This document shows positions 19,584-30,497 of a stretch of DNA of 64,000 bases, piece by piece. The DNA is from Acidimicrobiales bacterium (GTDB lineage: Bacteria; Actinomycetota; Acidimicrobiia; Acidimicrobiales; SKKL01). Below the pieces are notes generated by a model. That model saw nothing but the letters and a program-made list of their open reading frames with translations. It was not told where the DNA came from and did not search any database. A program made the position numbers and the translations under genes. The DNA is taken from assembly GCA_034521975.1 (NCBI GenBank), contig JAXHLR010000008.1, positions 62,001 through 126,000 on the forward strand, given 5' to 3'. Each line of letters opens with the position of its first letter. The first letter of the stretch is position 1.

Positions 19584-19765
19584 ATTCGGGATGCTAGGAC
19601 CATCTGCCGGATGCGCACCGCAGGCGGCTTGTTGACAGCATGGCAACGGGCTACGGTGACGTCCGCGTGTGGCAGGGGTCACACGCTCACCCACCCGCGC
19701 AGGGTGGCCGGCGCCCGCCGGATCGAGCACCAAGGTAGAACGTCCACACTGGGGGAATCACACAC

Positions 19766-21511
19766 GTGAACTACTCATCGACCACGGGTCGCCGAGCGCG
19801 ACTCTGGAGGGCACTGGCTGTCCTGCTGGCACTCGGTCTCGTCGCTGCCGCCTGCGGCAACGACGACGATTCGGCTGAGGAGCCCGACACCACCGATCCG
19901 GACACCACCGAGACCACCACCGACGACGAAGCCGCGCCCGAGGGCCCCGAGATCACCCCGGGCGGCAGCATCACCGTCGGCCTCGAGGACGAGCAGAACA
20001 ACTGGCTGCCCAGCGTCGGCTCCTTCGCCAACGCCGGCACCATGGCGGCTCGTGCCGTGTACGACCCGATCGCCGCTCGCGGCGAGGACGGCCAGATCTA
20101 CCCCTACCTGGCCGAGTCGATCGAGCCCAACGACGAGCTCGACGAGTGGACCGTCACCCTGCGCGAGGACATCCAGTTCCACGACGGCACCGACCTCACC
20201 GCCGAGGTGATGAAGACCATCTTCGACGACTACCTCACCGTCGAGGACGCGGTCACCGCGGGAAGCTTGTCCGATGTCGACGAGGTCAGAGTCGACGACG
20301 AGCTCACCTACACCTATGTGTTGAACCAGGCCGTCGCCTCGTTCCCCGACCTGTTGTACGGGTCGGTCGGCTGGCCGTTCTCGGTCGAGGCCTGTGAGGC
20401 CGCCGGCGGTCGCGACGGCGACTGCGGCGAGCAGATGGTCGGCACCGGACCGTTCGTGTTCGAGAGCTGGATCCGCGACGGTGACCTCACCCTCAGCCGC
20501 AACCCCGACTACTGGCGGGTCGACGCCAACGGCGAACAGCTGCCCTACCTCGACGAGCTGGTGTTCCAGTCGATCCCCGACGAGGACGCCCGGGTCAACT
20601 CGGTCGCCTCGGGAAGCATCAGCGTCGGCCAGACCCTGCGCCAGAGCTCGGTGCGGGCCGCCCGCGATCTCGACGGTGTGGCCACCTACGAGGCCATCGG
20701 AAACAACGGCGGTGGGTCGATCTTCAACACCGCGATCCCCCCGACCGACGACGTGCGGGTCCGCCGTGGCCTCACCCACGCCATCAACCAGGACGATCTG
20801 ATCGAGGTCTTGGGCGGCACCGACATCACGCCACCCCAGACCCAGTTCTTCAGCCCCGACTCGCCCTGGTACTCCTCCGCGGTCGAGGAGGTCTGGCCAA
20901 CCTACGACCCCGACCAAGCCGCCGAGCACCTCGACGAGTACATCAACGACCCCGAACGCTCCGACGGTCGCAACGTGGGCGACCCGATCGAGGTCGACTT
21001 CTACTGCCCGCCCGACCCGACACTGCTCGACGTGGCCCAGGCCTACCAGAGCTTCTGGCAAGCGGTCGGGGTCGATGTCAACCTCATCTCGCTCGACCAG
21101 CCCACCCACATCCAGAACGCGATCTCGGGTGACTACATGATCAACTGCTGGCGTGCGGGCGGCCAGTCGGACCCCTACATCACGCTGTCCAACGCGTTCA
21201 GCGACCCCGAGACCAACCCGCTCAACTTCACCAACTACGGAAGCGAGACCATCGACGAGAACCTGGAGATCCTGCGCACCAGCACCGACTTCGACGTCCG
21301 CTACGCGGCGGTCGAAGACATCATGTTCGAGCTGGCCGAGCAGCTCCCCCAGATCTGGACCGGGGGCACCGCCACGTCGATCTTCGCCATCGACGAGGTG
21401 CAAGGGCTCGACTCGTGGACGATCCCCGGCCCCGACCGGGCACCGCTGGTGAACGGCGACGGCGTCATCAACGCGACGACGTTTTTCGCCGAGGTCTGGC
21501 TCCAGCAGTAG
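19766..21511 (+). CDS. ABC transporter solute-binding lipoprotein (peptide/opine/nickel family 5), copy 1
   Basis: 581-residue extracytoplasmic binding protein. The signal sequence ends in a lipobox (LVAAACG) and is followed by a long Asp/Thr/Glu linker (DDDSAEEPDTTDPDTTETTT). The SBP_bac_5 fold is shown by YDPIAARGEDGQIYPYLAESI, LREDIQFHDGTDLTAEVMK and FESWIRDGDLTLSRNPDYW. It starts at a GTG after GGGGGAAT. It is the first gene of a cassette with an identical second copy and two permeases. Ligand could be oligopeptides or similar; not determinable. Confidence 0.93.
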   Translation: MNYSSTTGRRARLWRALAVLLALGLVAAACGNDDDSAEEPDTTDPDTTETTTDDEAAPEGPEITPGGSITVGLEDEQNNWLPSVGSFANAGTMAARAVYDPIAARGEDGQIYPYLAESIEPNDELDEWTVTLREDIQFHDGTDLTAEVMKTIFDDYLTVEDAVTAGSLSDVDEVRVDDELTYTYVLNQAVASFPDLLYGSVGWPFSVEACEAAGGRDGDCGEQMVGTGPFVFESWIRDGDLTLSRNPDYWRVDANGEQLPYLDELVFQSIPDEDARVNSVASGSISVGQTLRQSSVRAARDLDGVATYEAIGNNGGGSIFNTAIPPTDDVRVRRGLTHAINQDDLIEVLGGTDITPPQTQFFSPDSPWYSSAVEEVWPTYDPDQAAEHLDEYINDPERSDGRNVGDPIEVDFYCPPDPTLLDVAQAYQSFWQAVGVDVNLISLDQPTHIQNAISGDYMINCWRAGGQSDPYITLSNAFSDPETNPLNFTNYGSETIDENLEILRTSTDFDVRYAAVEDIMFELAEQLPQIWTGGTATSIFAIDEVQGLDSWTIPGPDRAPLVNGDGVINATTFFAEVWLQQ

Positions 21512-21528
21512 CACGCAGTGCACGCCCT

Positions 21529-21558
21529 GGTTCCGGATGGTGAGCACCATCCGGAACC
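21529..21558 (+). repeat. Perfect inverted repeat downstream of binding-protein copy 1
   Basis: Perfect 14-bp arms GGTTCCGGATGGTG / CACCATCCGGAACC separated by AG, 17 bases after the stop of copy 1. No T-tract follows. Half-arm copies (CCCGGATGGTG near 21576, CATCCATCCGGAC near 21609) follow in the same intergenic region. It may protect the 3' end of the upstream message or attenuate read-through. Confidence 0.8.
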
Positions 21559-21727
21559 AGCGCACTCGCACCGTTCCCGGATGGTGCTGACCCGATCAGG
21601 GATCCAGCATCCATCCGGACGGCACACACAGGGTGGGAACTGAACGGTGGACAGATACTCGGCCTGTGTGGGCCACCGGCATCCGCCGGGCCGACACCAC
21701 ACCTCACCCCTGGAGGGAATCACACAC

Positions 21728-23473
21728 GTGAACTACTCATCGACCACGGGTCGCCGAGCGCGACTCTGGAGGGCACTGGCTGTCCTGCTGGCACTCGGTC
21801 TCGTCGCTGCCGCCTGCGGCAACGACGACGATTCGGCTGAGGAGCCCGACACCACCGATCCGGACACCACCGAGACCACCACCGACGACGAAGCCGCGCC
21901 CGAGGGCCCCGAGATCACCCCGGGCGGCAGCATCACCGTCGGCCTCGAGGACGAGCAGAACAACTGGCTGCCCAGCGTCGGCTCCTTCGCCAACGCCGGC
22001 ACCATGGCGGCTCGTGCCGTGTACGACCCGATCGCCGCTCGCGGCGAGGACGGCCAGATCTACCCCTACCTGGCCGAGTCGATCGAGCCCAACGACGAGC
22101 TCGACGAGTGGACCGTCACCCTGCGCGAGGACATCCAGTTCCACGACGGCACCGACCTCACCGCCGAGGTGATGAAGACCATCTTCGACGACTACCTCAC
22201 CGTCGAGGACGCGGTCACCGCGGGAAGCTTGTCCGATGTCGACGAGGTCAGAGTCGACGACGAGCTCACCTACACCTATGTGTTGAACCAGGCCGTCGCC
22301 TCGTTCCCCGACCTGTTGTACGGGTCGGTCGGCTGGCCGTTCTCGGTCGAGGCCTGTGAGGCCGCCGGCGGTCGCGACGGCGACTGCGGCGAGCAGATGG
22401 TCGGCACCGGACCGTTCGTGTTCGAGAGCTGGATCCGCGACGGTGACCTCACCCTCAGCCGCAACCCCGACTACTGGCGGGTCGACGCCAACGGCGAACA
22501 GCTGCCCTACCTCGACGAGCTGGTGTTCCAGTCGATCCCCGACGAGGACGCCCGGGTCAACTCGGTCGCCTCGGGAAGCATCAGCGTCGGCCAGACCCTG
22601 CGCCAGAGCTCGGTGCGGGCCGCCCGCGATCTCGACGGTGTGGCCACCTACGAGGCCATCGGAAACAACGGCGGTGGGTCGATCTTCAACACCGCGATCC
22701 CCCCGACCGACGACGTGCGGGTCCGCCGTGGCCTCACCCACGCCATCAACCAGGACGATCTGATCGAGGTCTTGGGCGGCACCGACATCACGCCACCCCA
22801 GACCCAGTTCTTCAGCCCCGACTCGCCCTGGTACTCCTCCGCGGTCGAGGAGGTCTGGCCAACCTACGACCCCGACCAAGCCGCCGAGCACCTCGACGAG
22901 TACATCAACGACCCCGAACGCTCCGACGGTCGCAACGTGGGCGACCCGATCGAGGTCGACTTCTACTGCCCGCCCGACCCGACACTGCTCGACGTGGCCC
23001 AGGCCTACCAGAGCTTCTGGCAAGCGGTCGGGGTCGATGTCAACCTCATCTCGCTCGACCAGCCCACCCACATCCAGAACGCGATCTCGGGTGACTACAT
23101 GATCAACTGCTGGCGTGCGGGCGGCCAGTCGGACCCCTACATCACGCTGTCCAACGCGTTCAGCGACCCCGAGACCAACCCGCTCAACTTCACCAACTAC
23201 GGAAGCGAGACCATCGACGAGAACCTGGAGATCCTGCGCACCAGCACCGACTTCGACGTCCGCTACGCGGCGGTCGAAGACATCATGTTCGAGCTGGCCG
23301 AGCAGCTCCCCCAGATCTGGACCGGGGGCACCGCCACGTCGATCTTCGCCATCGACGAGGTGCAAGGGCTCGACTCGTGGACGATCCCCGGCCCGGACCG
23401 GGCACCGCTGGTGAACGGCGACGGTGTCATCAACGCGACGACGTTTTTCGCCGAGGTCTGGCTCCAGCAGTAG
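21728..23473 (+). CDS. ABC transporter solute-binding lipoprotein (family 5), copy 2, identical protein
   Basis: Encodes the same 581 residues as the gene 1962 bp upstream, with the same GTG start and lipobox. I find only two base differences, both silent and both near the 3' end: GGC-CCC versus GGC-CCG before Asp, and GGC versus GGT before Val. Similarity stops about 13 bases before the start and at the stop codon; flanking DNA is unrelated. The perfect coding match with unrelated flanks points to gene conversion or very recent copying. The next gene is the first permease. Confidence 0.93.
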   Translation: MNYSSTTGRRARLWRALAVLLALGLVAAACGNDDDSAEEPDTTDPDTTETTTDDEAAPEGPEITPGGSITVGLEDEQNNWLPSVGSFANAGTMAARAVYDPIAARGEDGQIYPYLAESIEPNDELDEWTVTLREDIQFHDGTDLTAEVMKTIFDDYLTVEDAVTAGSLSDVDEVRVDDELTYTYVLNQAVASFPDLLYGSVGWPFSVEACEAAGGRDGDCGEQMVGTGPFVFESWIRDGDLTLSRNPDYWRVDANGEQLPYLDELVFQSIPDEDARVNSVASGSISVGQTLRQSSVRAARDLDGVATYEAIGNNGGGSIFNTAIPPTDDVRVRRGLTHAINQDDLIEVLGGTDITPPQTQFFSPDSPWYSSAVEEVWPTYDPDQAAEHLDEYINDPERSDGRNVGDPIEVDFYCPPDPTLLDVAQAYQSFWQAVGVDVNLISLDQPTHIQNAISGDYMINCWRAGGQSDPYITLSNAFSDPETNPLNFTNYGSETIDENLEILRTSTDFDVRYAAVEDIMFELAEQLPQIWTGGTATSIFAIDEVQGLDSWTIPGPDRAPLVNGDGVINATTFFAEVWLQQ

Positions 23474-23529
23474 TCTCGTGCTGCTCGCTGCACGACAGCT
23501 GCGCAGCAACCACTCGTATCTGACCGTTC

Positions 23530-23566
23530 GATCCGGGGGGCCGGCCGACCGCCGACCTCCCGGATC
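23530..23566 (+). repeat. Hairpin between binding-protein copy 2 and the permease gene
   Basis: GATCCGGGGGG (23530-23540) pairs with CCTCCCGGATC (23556-23566), 11 bp with one G-T wobble and a 15-base loop. Like the hairpin after copy 1 it contains a CCGGAT core and lacks a T-tract. Its place between binding protein and permease fits the partial-attenuation or mRNA-stabiliser elements known from other binding-protein operons. Confidence 0.65.
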
Positions 23567-23641
23567 GACACCACCGTCCGAACAGCACGCTCGCGCTGCG
23601 ACCAGCAGCGCCACGAACCACAACACCGGGGGGCGACACAC

Positions 23642-24604
23642 ATGCTGGAACTGATCGGGAGACGGGCGCTCGGCCTGGTCCCGGTGATCGTTGCGGCCTC
23701 GATCATCACCTTCGTGATGCTCAGCCTGCTCCCTGGCGATTCGGTGATCGCCGACCTGCCACCCGACTTCACCCAGGAACAGCTCGACGCCCGGCGGGCC
23801 GAGCTCGGCCTCGACGACCCACTCCACATCCGCTACGTCGACTGGATCACCGGGGCGGTCCAGGGGGACCTGGGCCGATCGGCCATCACCAACGAGCGGG
23901 TCAGCCAGCTCATCACCGAGCGGTTCCCGGTCACGCTCCAGATCATGCTGATGACCATGGTCCTGGCCCTGCTCTTCTCCATCCCGCTCGGCGTGTTCAC
24001 CGCTTATCGAGCGGGCTCCTACTTCGACCGAGCCGTCAGCGCCATCACCTTCGGACTGCTGTCGATCCCCAACTTCGTGCTGGCGCTCCTGTTGATCATC
24101 CTCGTGGCCGTCGAGCTCGGATGGCTGCCGGCCACCGGGTGGACGCGCTTCACCGACGACCCGGTCGGAAGCCTCCGCAGCGGTCTGTTGCCCGCGCTGA
24201 CCTTGGCTGTGGCCATCGTGGCGGTGCTGACCCGCCTCCTGCGCACCGACATGATCTCGACCCTGCAGGACGACCACGTGGTGCTGGCCAAGTCCAAGGG
24301 GCTTCCCACCTCACAGATCCTGTTCCGCCACGCCCTGCGACCCTCGTCGTTCTCGCTCATGACGGTGCTCGGCCTCCAGATGGCTGCACTGCTGAGCGGG
24401 GTCGTGGTGATCGAGGAGATCTTCGCGCTACCGGGCCTGGGCCGGCGCCTGTTCGCGGCGGTCAACCAGCGCGACTTCATGGTGGTGCAGGGCCTGGTCC
24501 TGTTGCTCGCCGTGATCTATGTGCTCGTGAACTTCATCGTCGACATGCTCTATTCGTTCCTTGACCCGAGGATCCGCCATGGATACGCCAGATCGAACCA
24601 ATAG
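23642..24604 (+). CDS. ABC transporter permease, DppB/OppB type
   Basis: 320-residue inner-membrane permease with the DppB layout: N-terminal helix (RALGLVPVIVAASIITFVML), periplasmic segment, then five helices. The EAA loop that docks the ATPase is LAKSKGLPTSQILFRHALRP. It starts at an ATG after GGGGGG. It pairs with the DppC-type permease overlapping its 3' end. No ATPase gene is next to the cassette. Confidence 0.93.
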   Translation: MLELIGRRALGLVPVIVAASIITFVMLSLLPGDSVIADLPPDFTQEQLDARRAELGLDDPLHIRYVDWITGAVQGDLGRSAITNERVSQLITERFPVTLQIMLMTMVLALLFSIPLGVFTAYRAGSYFDRAVSAITFGLLSIPNFVLALLLIILVAVELGWLPATGWTRFTDDPVGSLRSGLLPALTLAVAIVAVLTRLLRTDMISTLQDDHVVLAKSKGLPTSQILFRHALRPSSFSLMTVLGLQMAALLSGVVVIEEIFALPGLGRRLFAAVNQRDFMVVQGLVLLLAVIYVLVNFIVDMLYSFLDPRIRHGYARSNQ

Positions 24605-25532
24605 CACCGCTGCTGGTGGCGACAACCTGAGCGCCGAGCCCGGTGGCCTCTCCACGCTGCCCCTCGAAGACATCGGTGTCGACCCCGAGGCCGACATCAA
24701 GCACCAGAAGAAGGGCAAGTTCGGCGTTCTCTTCGCCTTCAGCCTGTTCTGGCTGGTGTTGATCCTCATCTTCGCGGTGTTCGCCGACATCCTTCCCATC
24801 CCCGACCCCAACTTCCAGGACATCGGGGCCAACCGCACCCCACCGCTCACCGACGGTTACTTCCTCGGTACCGACAACCTCGGCCGCGACATGTTCTCCC
24901 GCATCGTGCACGGCGCGCGGGTGTCGGTGGTGATCAGCGTCACGGCGGTGGCGGCCGGCATGATCTTCGGCGGCATGCTCGGCCTGACCGCCGGCTACCT
25001 GCGGGGGCGCTACGAGTCGCTCGTCATGGGCATGGTCAACACGCTGCTGGCCTTCCCCGGCCTGGTGCTGCTGCTGGCTCTGGTCGCGCTGATGGGCCAG
25101 AACCTGCTCGCGGTCACCGCTGCGGTGGCGTTCCTATCGATCCCGACCTACACCCGTGTCGCCCGGGCCACGACCCTCGCCGTCTCCCAGCGTGAGTACG
25201 TCCTGGCGTCCAAGGCGCTGGGGGCCAAGCGCAGGCGGATCCTGATGCGAGAGATCGCTCCCAACGTGGCGCTTCCCGTCGCCGCGTTCGGTCTCATCGC
25301 GCTGGGGACCATCATCGTGCTCGAGGGCACGCTGGCGTTCCTCGGCCTCTCGGTCCAGGCGCCCCAGGCCACCTGGGGGTCGATGATCTTCCAGGGCCGT
25401 CGCTACTTCAGCGAGGGCGACTACTTCCTGACCCTCATCCCGGCCGCCGTGCTGTTCTTCACCGTGTTCTCGCTCAACTACGTGGGCGACGCCATGCGCA
25501 ACCGCCTCGACGTGCGCGAAGCCCAGCTCTGA
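24579..25532 (+). CDS. ABC transporter permease, DppC/OppC type
   Basis: 317-residue permease. A long polar N-terminal tail (about 50 residues) precedes the first helix VLFAFSLFWLVLILIFAVFA. The family motif FLGTDNLGRDMFSRIVHGAR follows, and the EAA loop is LASKALGAKRRRILMREIAPN. The ATG at 24579 was chosen over an upstream TTG because GAGGA lies six bases before it. It overlaps the upstream permease gene by 26 bases. A strong terminator follows, ending the cassette without ATPase genes. Confidence 0.93.
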   Translation: MDTPDRTNSTAAGGDNLSAEPGGLSTLPLEDIGVDPEADIKHQKKGKFGVLFAFSLFWLVLILIFAVFADILPIPDPNFQDIGANRTPPLTDGYFLGTDNLGRDMFSRIVHGARVSVVISVTAVAAGMIFGGMLGLTAGYLRGRYESLVMGMVNTLLAFPGLVLLLALVALMGQNLLAVTAAVAFLSIPTYTRVARATTLAVSQREYVLASKALGAKRRRILMREIAPNVALPVAAFGLIALGTIIVLEGTLAFLGLSVQAPQATWGSMIFQGRRYFSEGDYFLTLIPAAVLFFTVFSLNYVGDAMRNRLDVREAQL

Positions 25533-28763: not shown

Positions 28764-30497
28764 CTACTGTTCGATCCAGACCTCGGCCCAGAAGACGGTG
28801 GCGTTGAGCGCACCGTTTCCTTCGACCAGTGGCGCCCCGTCGGGACCGGGGATGGTCCAGTCGGCGATGCCGTGCACCGAGTCGTCGGCGAAGAGCGACG
28901 TGGCCGTGCCCGCGGTCCAGATCTGGGGGACCTGGTCGGCCAGCTCGAACATGATGTCTTCGACCGCCGCGTAGCGGACGTCGAAGTCGGTGCTGGTGCG
29001 CAGGATCTCCAGGTTCTCGTCGATGCTCTCGCTGCTGTAGTTGGTGAAGTTGACCGGGGTCGTCTCGGGGTCACCGAACGCGCTCGACAGCGTGATGAAG
29101 GGATCCTCCTGACCACCCGCACGCCAGCAGTTGATCATGTAGTCGCCTGCGATCGCGTTCTGGATGTGGGTGGGCTGGTCGAGCGCGATGAGGTTGACCT
29201 CGAACCCGACGGCCTGCCAGAAGCCCTGGTACGCCTGGGCGAGGTCGACCAGCGTGGGGTCGGGCGGGCAGTAGAAGTCGATCTCGACCGGATCGCCCAC
29301 GGCCCGACCGTCGGAACGATCGGGATCGTTCACGTACTCGGCGAGGTGCTCCTCGGCCTGCTCCGGGTCGTCGCTCGGCCAGGCATCGGCGACGTCCGCG
29401 GAGTACCAGGGCGAGTCGGGGCTGAAGAACTGGGTCTGGGGCGGCGTGATGTCGGTGCCACCCAGGACCTCGACCAGGTCCTCCTGATCGACTGCGTAGG
29501 CCAGCGCACGGCGGACCCGAAGATCGTCGGTCGGCGCCATCGCGGTGTTGAAGATCGACCCGCCGCCGTTGTTGCCGATCGACTCGTAGGTGGCCACATC
29601 GTCGAGCTCGCGGGCGGCCCGCACCGAGCTCTGGCGCAGGGTCTGGCCGACGTCGATCGTGCCGGAGGCGACCGAGTTGAGTCGGGCGTCCTCGTCGGGG
29701 ATCGGCTGGAACACCAGCTCGTCGAGGTAGGGGAGCTGCTCGCCGTTGGCGTCGACCCGCCAGTAGTCGGGGTTGCGGCTGAGGGTGAGCTCACCGTCAC
29801 GGATCCAGCTCTCGAACACGAACGGTCCGGTGCCGACCATCTGCTCGCCGCAGTCGCCATCGCGACCTCCGGCGGCCTCGCAGGCCTCGACCGAGAACGC
29901 CCAACCCATCGGGCCGACCAGCGCGTCGGGGAAGGGCGCGATGGCGCTGTCGAGCACGTAGGTGTAGGTGAGCTCGTCGTCGACCCGCACCTCCTCGACG
30001 CGGTTGACCATGGCAGGCAGGCCGGTGGCCTCCTCGATGGCGAGGTACTCGTCGAAGATCGTCTTCATGACCTCGGCGGTGAGGTCGGTGCCGTCGTGGA
30101 ACTGCACGCCCTCGCGCAGGGTGACGGTCCACTCGGTGAGCTCGTCGTTGGGCTCGATCGACTCGGCCAGGAACGGATACACCTGACCGTCCTCGGCGCG
30201 GGCGGCGATCGGGTCGTAGACCGCGACCGCGGCCGCGACACCCGGGTTGGAGAAGGTCGCAGCGCCGGGCAGCCAGTTGGCCTGCTCGTCCTCGAGTCCG
30301 ACCGACACGCTCCCTCCCCGGGTGACATCCTCCGGACCGGGGGCGGCATCCTCGGTGGTGTCGGGGTCGTCGGGCCCGTCGGGGTCGGCCCCGGTGTCGC
30401 TGTCGTTGCCGCAGGCGGCGGCCACGAGACCGAACGCCAGAAGTAGGGCCAGGATCCTCCAGTACCGCGAGCGGACCGGAGTCGATGTGGTGTTCAC
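28764..30497 (-). CDS. ABC transporter solute-binding lipoprotein (family 5), diverged third paralogue
   Basis: 577-residue lipoprotein (lipobox LVAAACG, acidic Asp/Pro/Thr linker) clearly homologous along its whole length to the twin binding proteins at 19.8-23.5 kb, sharing long stretches such as EACEAAGGRDGDCGEQMVGT and ITPPQTQFFSPDSPWYS but with many substitutions. It is on the opposite strand with no permease beside it, so it may feed the same permeases with a different ligand. The GTG start follows GGGAGGGAAG, and the leader resembles those of the twins. Confidence 0.92.
   Translation of the reverse strand: MNTTSTPVRSRYWRILALLLAFGLVAAACGNDSDTGADPDGPDDPDTTEDAAPGPEDVTRGGSVSVGLEDEQANWLPGAATFSNPGVAAAVAVYDPIAARAEDGQVYPFLAESIEPNDELTEWTVTLREGVQFHDGTDLTAEVMKTIFDEYLAIEEATGLPAMVNRVEEVRVDDELTYTYVLDSAIAPFPDALVGPMGWAFSVEACEAAGGRDGDCGEQMVGTGPFVFESWIRDGELTLSRNPDYWRVDANGEQLPYLDELVFQPIPDEDARLNSVASGTIDVGQTLRQSSVRAARELDDVATYESIGNNGGGSIFNTAMAPTDDLRVRRALAYAVDQEDLVEVLGGTDITPPQTQFFSPDSPWYSADVADAWPSDDPEQAEEHLAEYVNDPDRSDGRAVGDPVEIDFYCPPDPTLVDLAQAYQGFWQAVGFEVNLIALDQPTHIQNAIAGDYMINCWRAGGQEDPFITLSSAFGDPETTPVNFTNYSSESIDENLEILRTSTDFDVRYAAVEDIMFELADQVPQIWTAGTATSLFADDSVHGIADWTIPGPDGAPLVEGNGALNATVFWAEVWIEQ

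Follow-up and report, generated by a model that had tools for sequence, protein, structure and literature searches.

Two identical tandem substrate-binding protein genes with unrelated flanks in an Acidimicrobiales genome: a probable case of concerted evolution

Concerted evolution of duplicated bacterial genes (PMC6053082) and importers served by several binding proteins (PMC7822543) are both already well known. In the long-lasting prokaryotic cases (tuf, amo/hao, fla and mtrA, among others), paralogues within a species are closer to each other than to their orthologues, and homogenisation is confined to the gene, between flanks that differ from copy to copy and are conserved by position (PMC6053082). 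The main text of that study names no transporter or binding-protein genes. In Borrelia burgdorferi, several family-5 binding proteins of the OppA set work with one Opp-type importer and their pockets differ by copy; conversion between oppA genes is not reported in that paper (PMC7822543), and the library that we searched held no directly comparable account of conversion between genes for binding proteins. Here, we describe a tandem pair of predicted family-5 binding-protein genes, A and B, in a 64,000-nucleotide stretch (the window) of contig JAXHLR010000008.1 from an Acidimicrobiales bacterium (genome G000). The pair resembles the described cases in all the respects listed above, but it is tandem, can be followed only two species deep, and consists of whole identical genes in one species and of mosaics in the other. 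With the Borrelia set it shares the theme of several binding proteins per importer, although the Borrelia copies are divergent and functionally specialised while the two copies in G000 are identical.

Gene A (19766-21511, + strand) and gene B (21728-23473, + strand) occupy the first and second tandem positions, with B adjoining the permease genes. Each is an open reading frame (ORF) of 1746 bases coding for 581 amino acids, with a GTG start in A. A base-by-base comparison at an offset of 1962 confirmed the original prediction that all 581 residues are the same and that two silent changes near the 3' end are the only nucleotide differences: a proline codon that is CCC in A (C at 21433) and CCG in B (G at 23395), and a glycine codon that is GGC in A (C at 21463) and GGT in B (T at 23425). 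This corresponds to 99.9% nucleotide identity and a silent divergence of 0.005 (2 of about 413 silent sites), and a chance origin of 1.76 kb of such similarity is excluded. Exact identity runs from 19753 in A and 21715 in B, 13 bases 5' of the GTG, precisely up to the stop codon, and would begin 17-18 bases upstream if a single 1-base indel is allowed. The two identical 13-bp ribosome-binding leaders (19753-19765 and 21715-21727, both + strand) read AATCACACAC. Outside the shared stretch, identity falls to 18-43% per 40 bases. The upstream flanks of A and B are no more alike than shuffled sequences (z score 1.0), and the downstream flanks show a weak likeness (z 3.2, reached by 5 of 500 shuffles) that is far below the 99.9% of the genes; with this small qualification, the predicted contrast between the genes and their flanks holds. 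Long antisense open frames lie opposite A (19775-21571, − strand) and B (21737-24277, − strand); such frames are usual for high-GC coding sequence and we took them as spurious.

Four genomes of the family were available for comparison in the collections, and the only congener among them is G001, a metagenome-assembled genome of an Acidimicrobiales bacterium (contigs SKKL01000064 and SKKL01000247). A search for further relatives returned no viral contigs and, among genome contigs, this congener alone. Its gene order is guaA, guaB, guaB3, a small ORF, a PLP (pyridoxal phosphate) decarboxylase, binding-protein copies 1 and 2, permeases 1 and 2, NUDIX and groEL, the same as in the window. Copy 1 spans the junction of the two G001 contigs, whose ends share 84 identical bases, and its reading frame stays open across the join. 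The G001 copies are mosaics, 84% identical to each other in nucleotides. In local alignment, the 120-base upstream region of A is clearly related to that of G001 copy 1 (z 22.7, 0 of 500 shuffles); this orthologous block (19590-19710, + strand), with the shared pattern TTGTTGACA..TACGGTGAC..GTGTG.CAGG.GTCACA, is probably the control region of A. Downstream of B, the likeness to the downstream flank of copy 2 is smaller (z 4.3, 2 of 500 shuffles). Since A upstream and B downstream are orthologous by position, gene order is shared, and two sequence types within the genes (see below) are common to both species, the pair is older than the split of G000 and G001, whose silent divergence is 0.30 at groEL, 0.31 at guaA, and 0.39 and 0.42 at the permeases. 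The check for a pair of similar pattern in a relative, proposed with the original prediction, came out in its favour: G001 carries the tandem pair in the corresponding position, the upstream flank of its copy 1 is orthologous, and homogenisation within the species is patchy.

The one-contig genome G002 has a single binding-protein gene at the corresponding place and, on present evidence, the tandem pair is a feature of the genus of G000 and G001. Other arrangements occur further away. G003, from a related genus, has one binding-protein gene on each side of the PLP decarboxylase (locus L052, 4417-10236; 76% nucleotide identity), and G016, from the same order, has three tandem genes of this family with 79-83% mutual identity (locus L055, 4483-9864). 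Both sets were checked for similar mosaics, and at about 74-83% identity neither contains near-identical tracts.

A third paralogue, gene C (28764-30497, − strand, 577 amino acids), had been missed by the original prediction. It lies inverted beyond the permeases, NUDIX and groEL, and is 77% identical to A/B in amino acids and about 83% in nucleotides. Silent divergence between A and C is 0.42-0.47 at both gene ends and in the segment referred to below as segment 1, against only 0.03 in aligned codons 496-540, so that C appears to take part in exchange with A/B in spite of its inverted position several genes away. The leader is AAGCACCAC in C and AAACACCAC in G001 copy 1. A and B have a form of their own (GGAATCACACAC, compared with GAAGCACCAC in C and GAAACACCAC in G001 copy 1), and therefore the homogenised stretch takes in the ribosome-binding region. 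The flanks of C match none of A, B or the G001 copies, and the idea that C is a copy carrying the promoter of A was rejected for this reason. C is not present in G001 at the corresponding place, between groEL and the HD gene.

The site patterns across A, C and the two G001 copies show how the genes are put together. Of 174 informative sites, 115 group the genes by species, 33 pair G001 copy 2 with A and G001 copy 1 with C, and 26 support the third arrangement. Along the gene these classes are strongly clustered. The species sites include an unbroken run of 47, a length not reached in any of 20,000 shuffles, and the longest identical run between the two G001 copies was not matched in 10,000 shuffles (all sites); the corresponding test for A and C, also on all sites, is not significant (P 0.06). 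Paralogues within a species are closer than orthologues in the whole-gene and core trees as well as in silent divergences, and in the core (residues 205-455) the tree joins G001 copies 1 and 2 at 100/100. The sites that cross species are concentrated elsewhere. In segment 1 (A 20255-20374, + strand, residues 164-203), A/B go with G001 copy 2, sharing the form TAG...YG.VGW (Y-type), whereas C goes with G001 copy 1, sharing GLPA...GPMGW (P-type); a protein tree built on residues 150-204 unites C with G001 copy 1 (98.1/99). Segment 2 (A 21125-21211, + strand, residues 454-482) holds a second, weaker cluster of such sites, and its tree is weak. The last 37 residues of A/B are nearest to G001 copy 1 (86.6/86). 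At the two positions where A and B differ, G001 copy 1 has the base of A both times, while C carries the base of A at the first and that of B at the second.

The most probable explanation, which we hold with good confidence, is that an old tandem pair has been homogenised within each lineage by intragenomic homologous recombination, that is, by gene conversion, possibly together with unequal exchange. Recombination between the copies would repeatedly copy tracts from gene to gene wherever the copies still align. Both in the G001 pair and in the exchange of A/B with C in G000, this would have made chiefly the middle of the gene uniform, while in the A/B pair one or more recent events would have overwritten nearly the whole of one gene with the sequence of its neighbour, beginning in the ribosome-binding leader and ending shortly before the stop. 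Judging from silent divergence (0.005 for A/B against 0.30-0.42 between the species), homogenisation is most complete in A/B. A tract would stop at the limit of the homology shared by A and B; the flanks, with their separate control regions and hairpins, stay distinct because they are no longer homologous and so are not copied. The original prediction had already preferred gene conversion or homogenisation to simple tandem duplication, and the combination of unmatched flanks with 99.9% identical genes supports it. That the process is confined to the gene, in its description, calls for no special targeting, as gene and leader are the only homology common to both places. A and B are Y-type in segment 1, like G001 copy 2, yet their last 37 residues are nearest to G001 copy 1 and A has the base of G001 copy 1 at both differing sites, a pattern that suggests at least two conversion events in opposite directions if the arrangement in G001 is the older one. 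How many events there were and which way they ran, like recombination of the RecA type, are what we infer from these patterns.

Several points weigh against this explanation. There is a single congener in the collections, its genome is a fragmented assembly, and its copy 1 is split over two contigs. G000 is itself a draft that may stem from short reads, with no 16S gene found in the genome. When restricted to silent sites, the run test is not significant for either the G001 pair (P 0.21) or A and C (P 0.09). We tried to establish orthology of the G000 and G001 spacers, but their alignment is not significant (z 0.8), so that only the outer flanks prove positional orthology; in spite of this, each spacer holds a strong hairpin and they share a ACGGTGGAC...CCTGTGTGG match. 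Finally, for a tandem pair, conversion and unequal crossing-over are indistinguishable from the end product. The latter process, with expansion to three copies followed by contraction, instead of non-reciprocal conversion, is the alternative that we take most seriously, although we consider it rather unlikely. Same-strand tandem repeats 216 bp apart are natural substrates for it, the outer flanks would stay intact, and related genomes do have tandem pairs or triples (the G003 pair and the G016 triple). However, C shares species-specific tracts with A/B (the codons with silent divergence of 0.03) and there is no inversion; a crossover between copies in opposite orientation would have flipped the intervening segment, and therefore the exchange between A/B and C, at least, looks like conversion. 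A recent simple duplication of one gene in the G000 lineage would also give 99.9% identity in a tandem, same-strand layout, and is a formally open alternative for tandem pairs, as noted for fla (PMC6053082). We nevertheless rejected it as very improbable: no flank was carried along, the upstream flank of A has its orthologue upstream of G001 copy 1, G001 already has two copies there, and the Y- and P-types are common to both species. Purifying selection alone could keep the proteins identical, given that a binding protein tied to one permease is constrained, but the silent sites are identical too, 2 differences in about 413 against 30-40% differing between species, which leaves this idea with practically no credit.

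The assembly deserves separate attention. The original prediction had taken the two silent differences as an argument against a pure assembly duplication, but alone they do not exclude smoothing by the assembler, since both lie within the final 79 of the 1759 bases in common (P about 0.002 if placement were random). The interiors of the two copies could in truth differ by one to a few percent and have been collapsed by the assembler or polisher, and the draft state of the genome, in which no 16S gene was found, would fit this. The differences stand near the unique exit flank, where a short-read assembler keeps differences, and interior identity could therefore be slightly below 100%; a conversion tract ending at that point would leave the same placement. 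Yet a collapse requires copies that were close to identical from the outset, identity also holds in the first bases that follow the unique 5' flanks, a unique spacer with a gene on both sides shows that there are two copies, the 84% identical pair of G001 was not collapsed, and the contig ends have no exact k-mer overlaps. We regard this explanation as improbable, if clearly less so than simple duplication. A gene-spacer-gene loop would be walkable in the assembly graph without long reads, and contiguity is thus no proof of them; the ends of the G000 contigs, where no exact overlaps were found, do not reveal the assembly type either. Even if the interior was smoothed, strong homogenisation relative to G001 remains, and just the exact percentage is uncertain. 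The locus is also a reason for caution with near-identical tandem genes in drafts, where differences may have been smoothed out of sight. Elsewhere in G000, two contig tips (L077, C10:1-1105, and L079, the end of C3) overlap over 1126 bases at 88% identity, which could reflect strain variation or a pair of paralogues at which the assembly broke.

The spacer and the region after B contain marked secondary structures. A terminator- or attenuator-like hairpin with a 15-bp perfect stem lies 3' of A (21527-21560, + strand). Compared with shuffled sequences, predicted RNA folding is strong both in the 129 nucleotides after A (21512-21640, z -6.5) and after B (23474-23620, z -6.1), as it is for the hairpin of the G001 spacer (z -4.0). 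The hairpins after A and B both lack T runs, and a scan for promoter and terminator consensus sequences found nothing, hence no classical terminator.

The product of A and B is predicted to be a family-5 substrate-binding lipoprotein (SBP_bac_5). Residues 110-480 match PF00496 over model positions 1-363 of 368 (E 7e-66, 223 bits against a gathering score of 32.4), and a candidate LVAAAC lipobox, read from the sequence, ends at Cys30, which together with Gly31 is kept in at least 90% of 32 relatives. The AlphaFold2 model (pLDDT, predicted local distance difference test, 89.2) has the two-lobed fold of the DppA/NikA/GsiB type, with CtaP, the family-5 protein 5u4o, YliB and DppA as best PDB matches (E about 1e-38) and a template-modelling (TM) score, normalised to the query, of about 0.67-0.76 to NikA, DppA and GsiB structures. 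The NCBIfam equivalog models are all missed by a wide margin, with 125 bits against a cut-off of 393 for NikA (TIGR02294) and 55.5 against 1005 for DppA (NF043070), and permease 1 likewise falls under every cut-off. Permease 1 (23642-24604, + strand) is of the OppB/DppB/NikB type, with PF00528 and PF19300, and permease 2 (24579-25532, + strand, with an ATG start assumed within the ORF listed from 24561) is of the OppC/DppC/NikC type, with PF00528. Fold, domain match and gene order with two permeases are all as in NikA, DppA and GsiB (PF00496, family-5 or cluster C), and it is most likely, from domain content and gene order, that A/B and the two permeases form one Dpp/Opp/Nik-type ABC (ATP-binding cassette) importer. 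No importer ATPase was recognised within the stretch examined near A/B; oligo_HPY ATPases are found on contigs C5 and C9 of the genome.

The pocket of NikA comprises Arg97, Trp100, Arg137, Tyr382, Trp398 and Tyr402 (PMC11091072), which in a remote alignment correspond to residues 162, 165, 203, 449, 464 and 468 of A, in that order; the NikA template, 2noo, is listed as a mutant with Ala at five of these positions. The pocket is not conserved, with Trp100, Arg137 and Tyr402 replaced by Ala, Trp and Ser in A/B. The counterparts of Trp100 and Arg137 (165 and 203) fall in segment 1, while segment 2 contains Ser468, the counterpart of Tyr402, at which C and G001 copy 1 both carry Glu. Amino acid sites of the Y/P pattern are within two residues of a pocket position in 6 of 15 cases, compared with 1 of 28 species-type sites (Fisher P 0.005), but the sites are clustered and hence not independent, the distance was chosen post hoc, and the alignment is remote. 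The overlap of the segments exempt from species grouping with the NikA/DppA pocket positions is thus suggestive only, a lead. We tentatively consider a possible, though doubtful, extension of concerted evolution in which conversion would spare the pocket. The body of the protein would be kept uniform to fit the shared permease, Y and P pocket types would be maintained across species within short stretches exempt from this, and from time to time conversion of a whole gene would bring a pocket type under the promoter of another copy. The control region of the first position in G000 would now drive a Y-type protein, and the P-type would survive solely as C.

Identical genes, unrelated flanks, a half-homogenised sister pair and a third copy exchanging at a distance make this locus a natural example of bacterial gene conversion with clear bounds. 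For the cell, the probable gain would be more of one binding protein for one permease, made from two separately controlled genes. If conversion does spare the pocket, the locus would illustrate how conversion can reshuffle promoter and specificity, and the ligand-determining segments of uncharacterised importers might be found from sequence alone.

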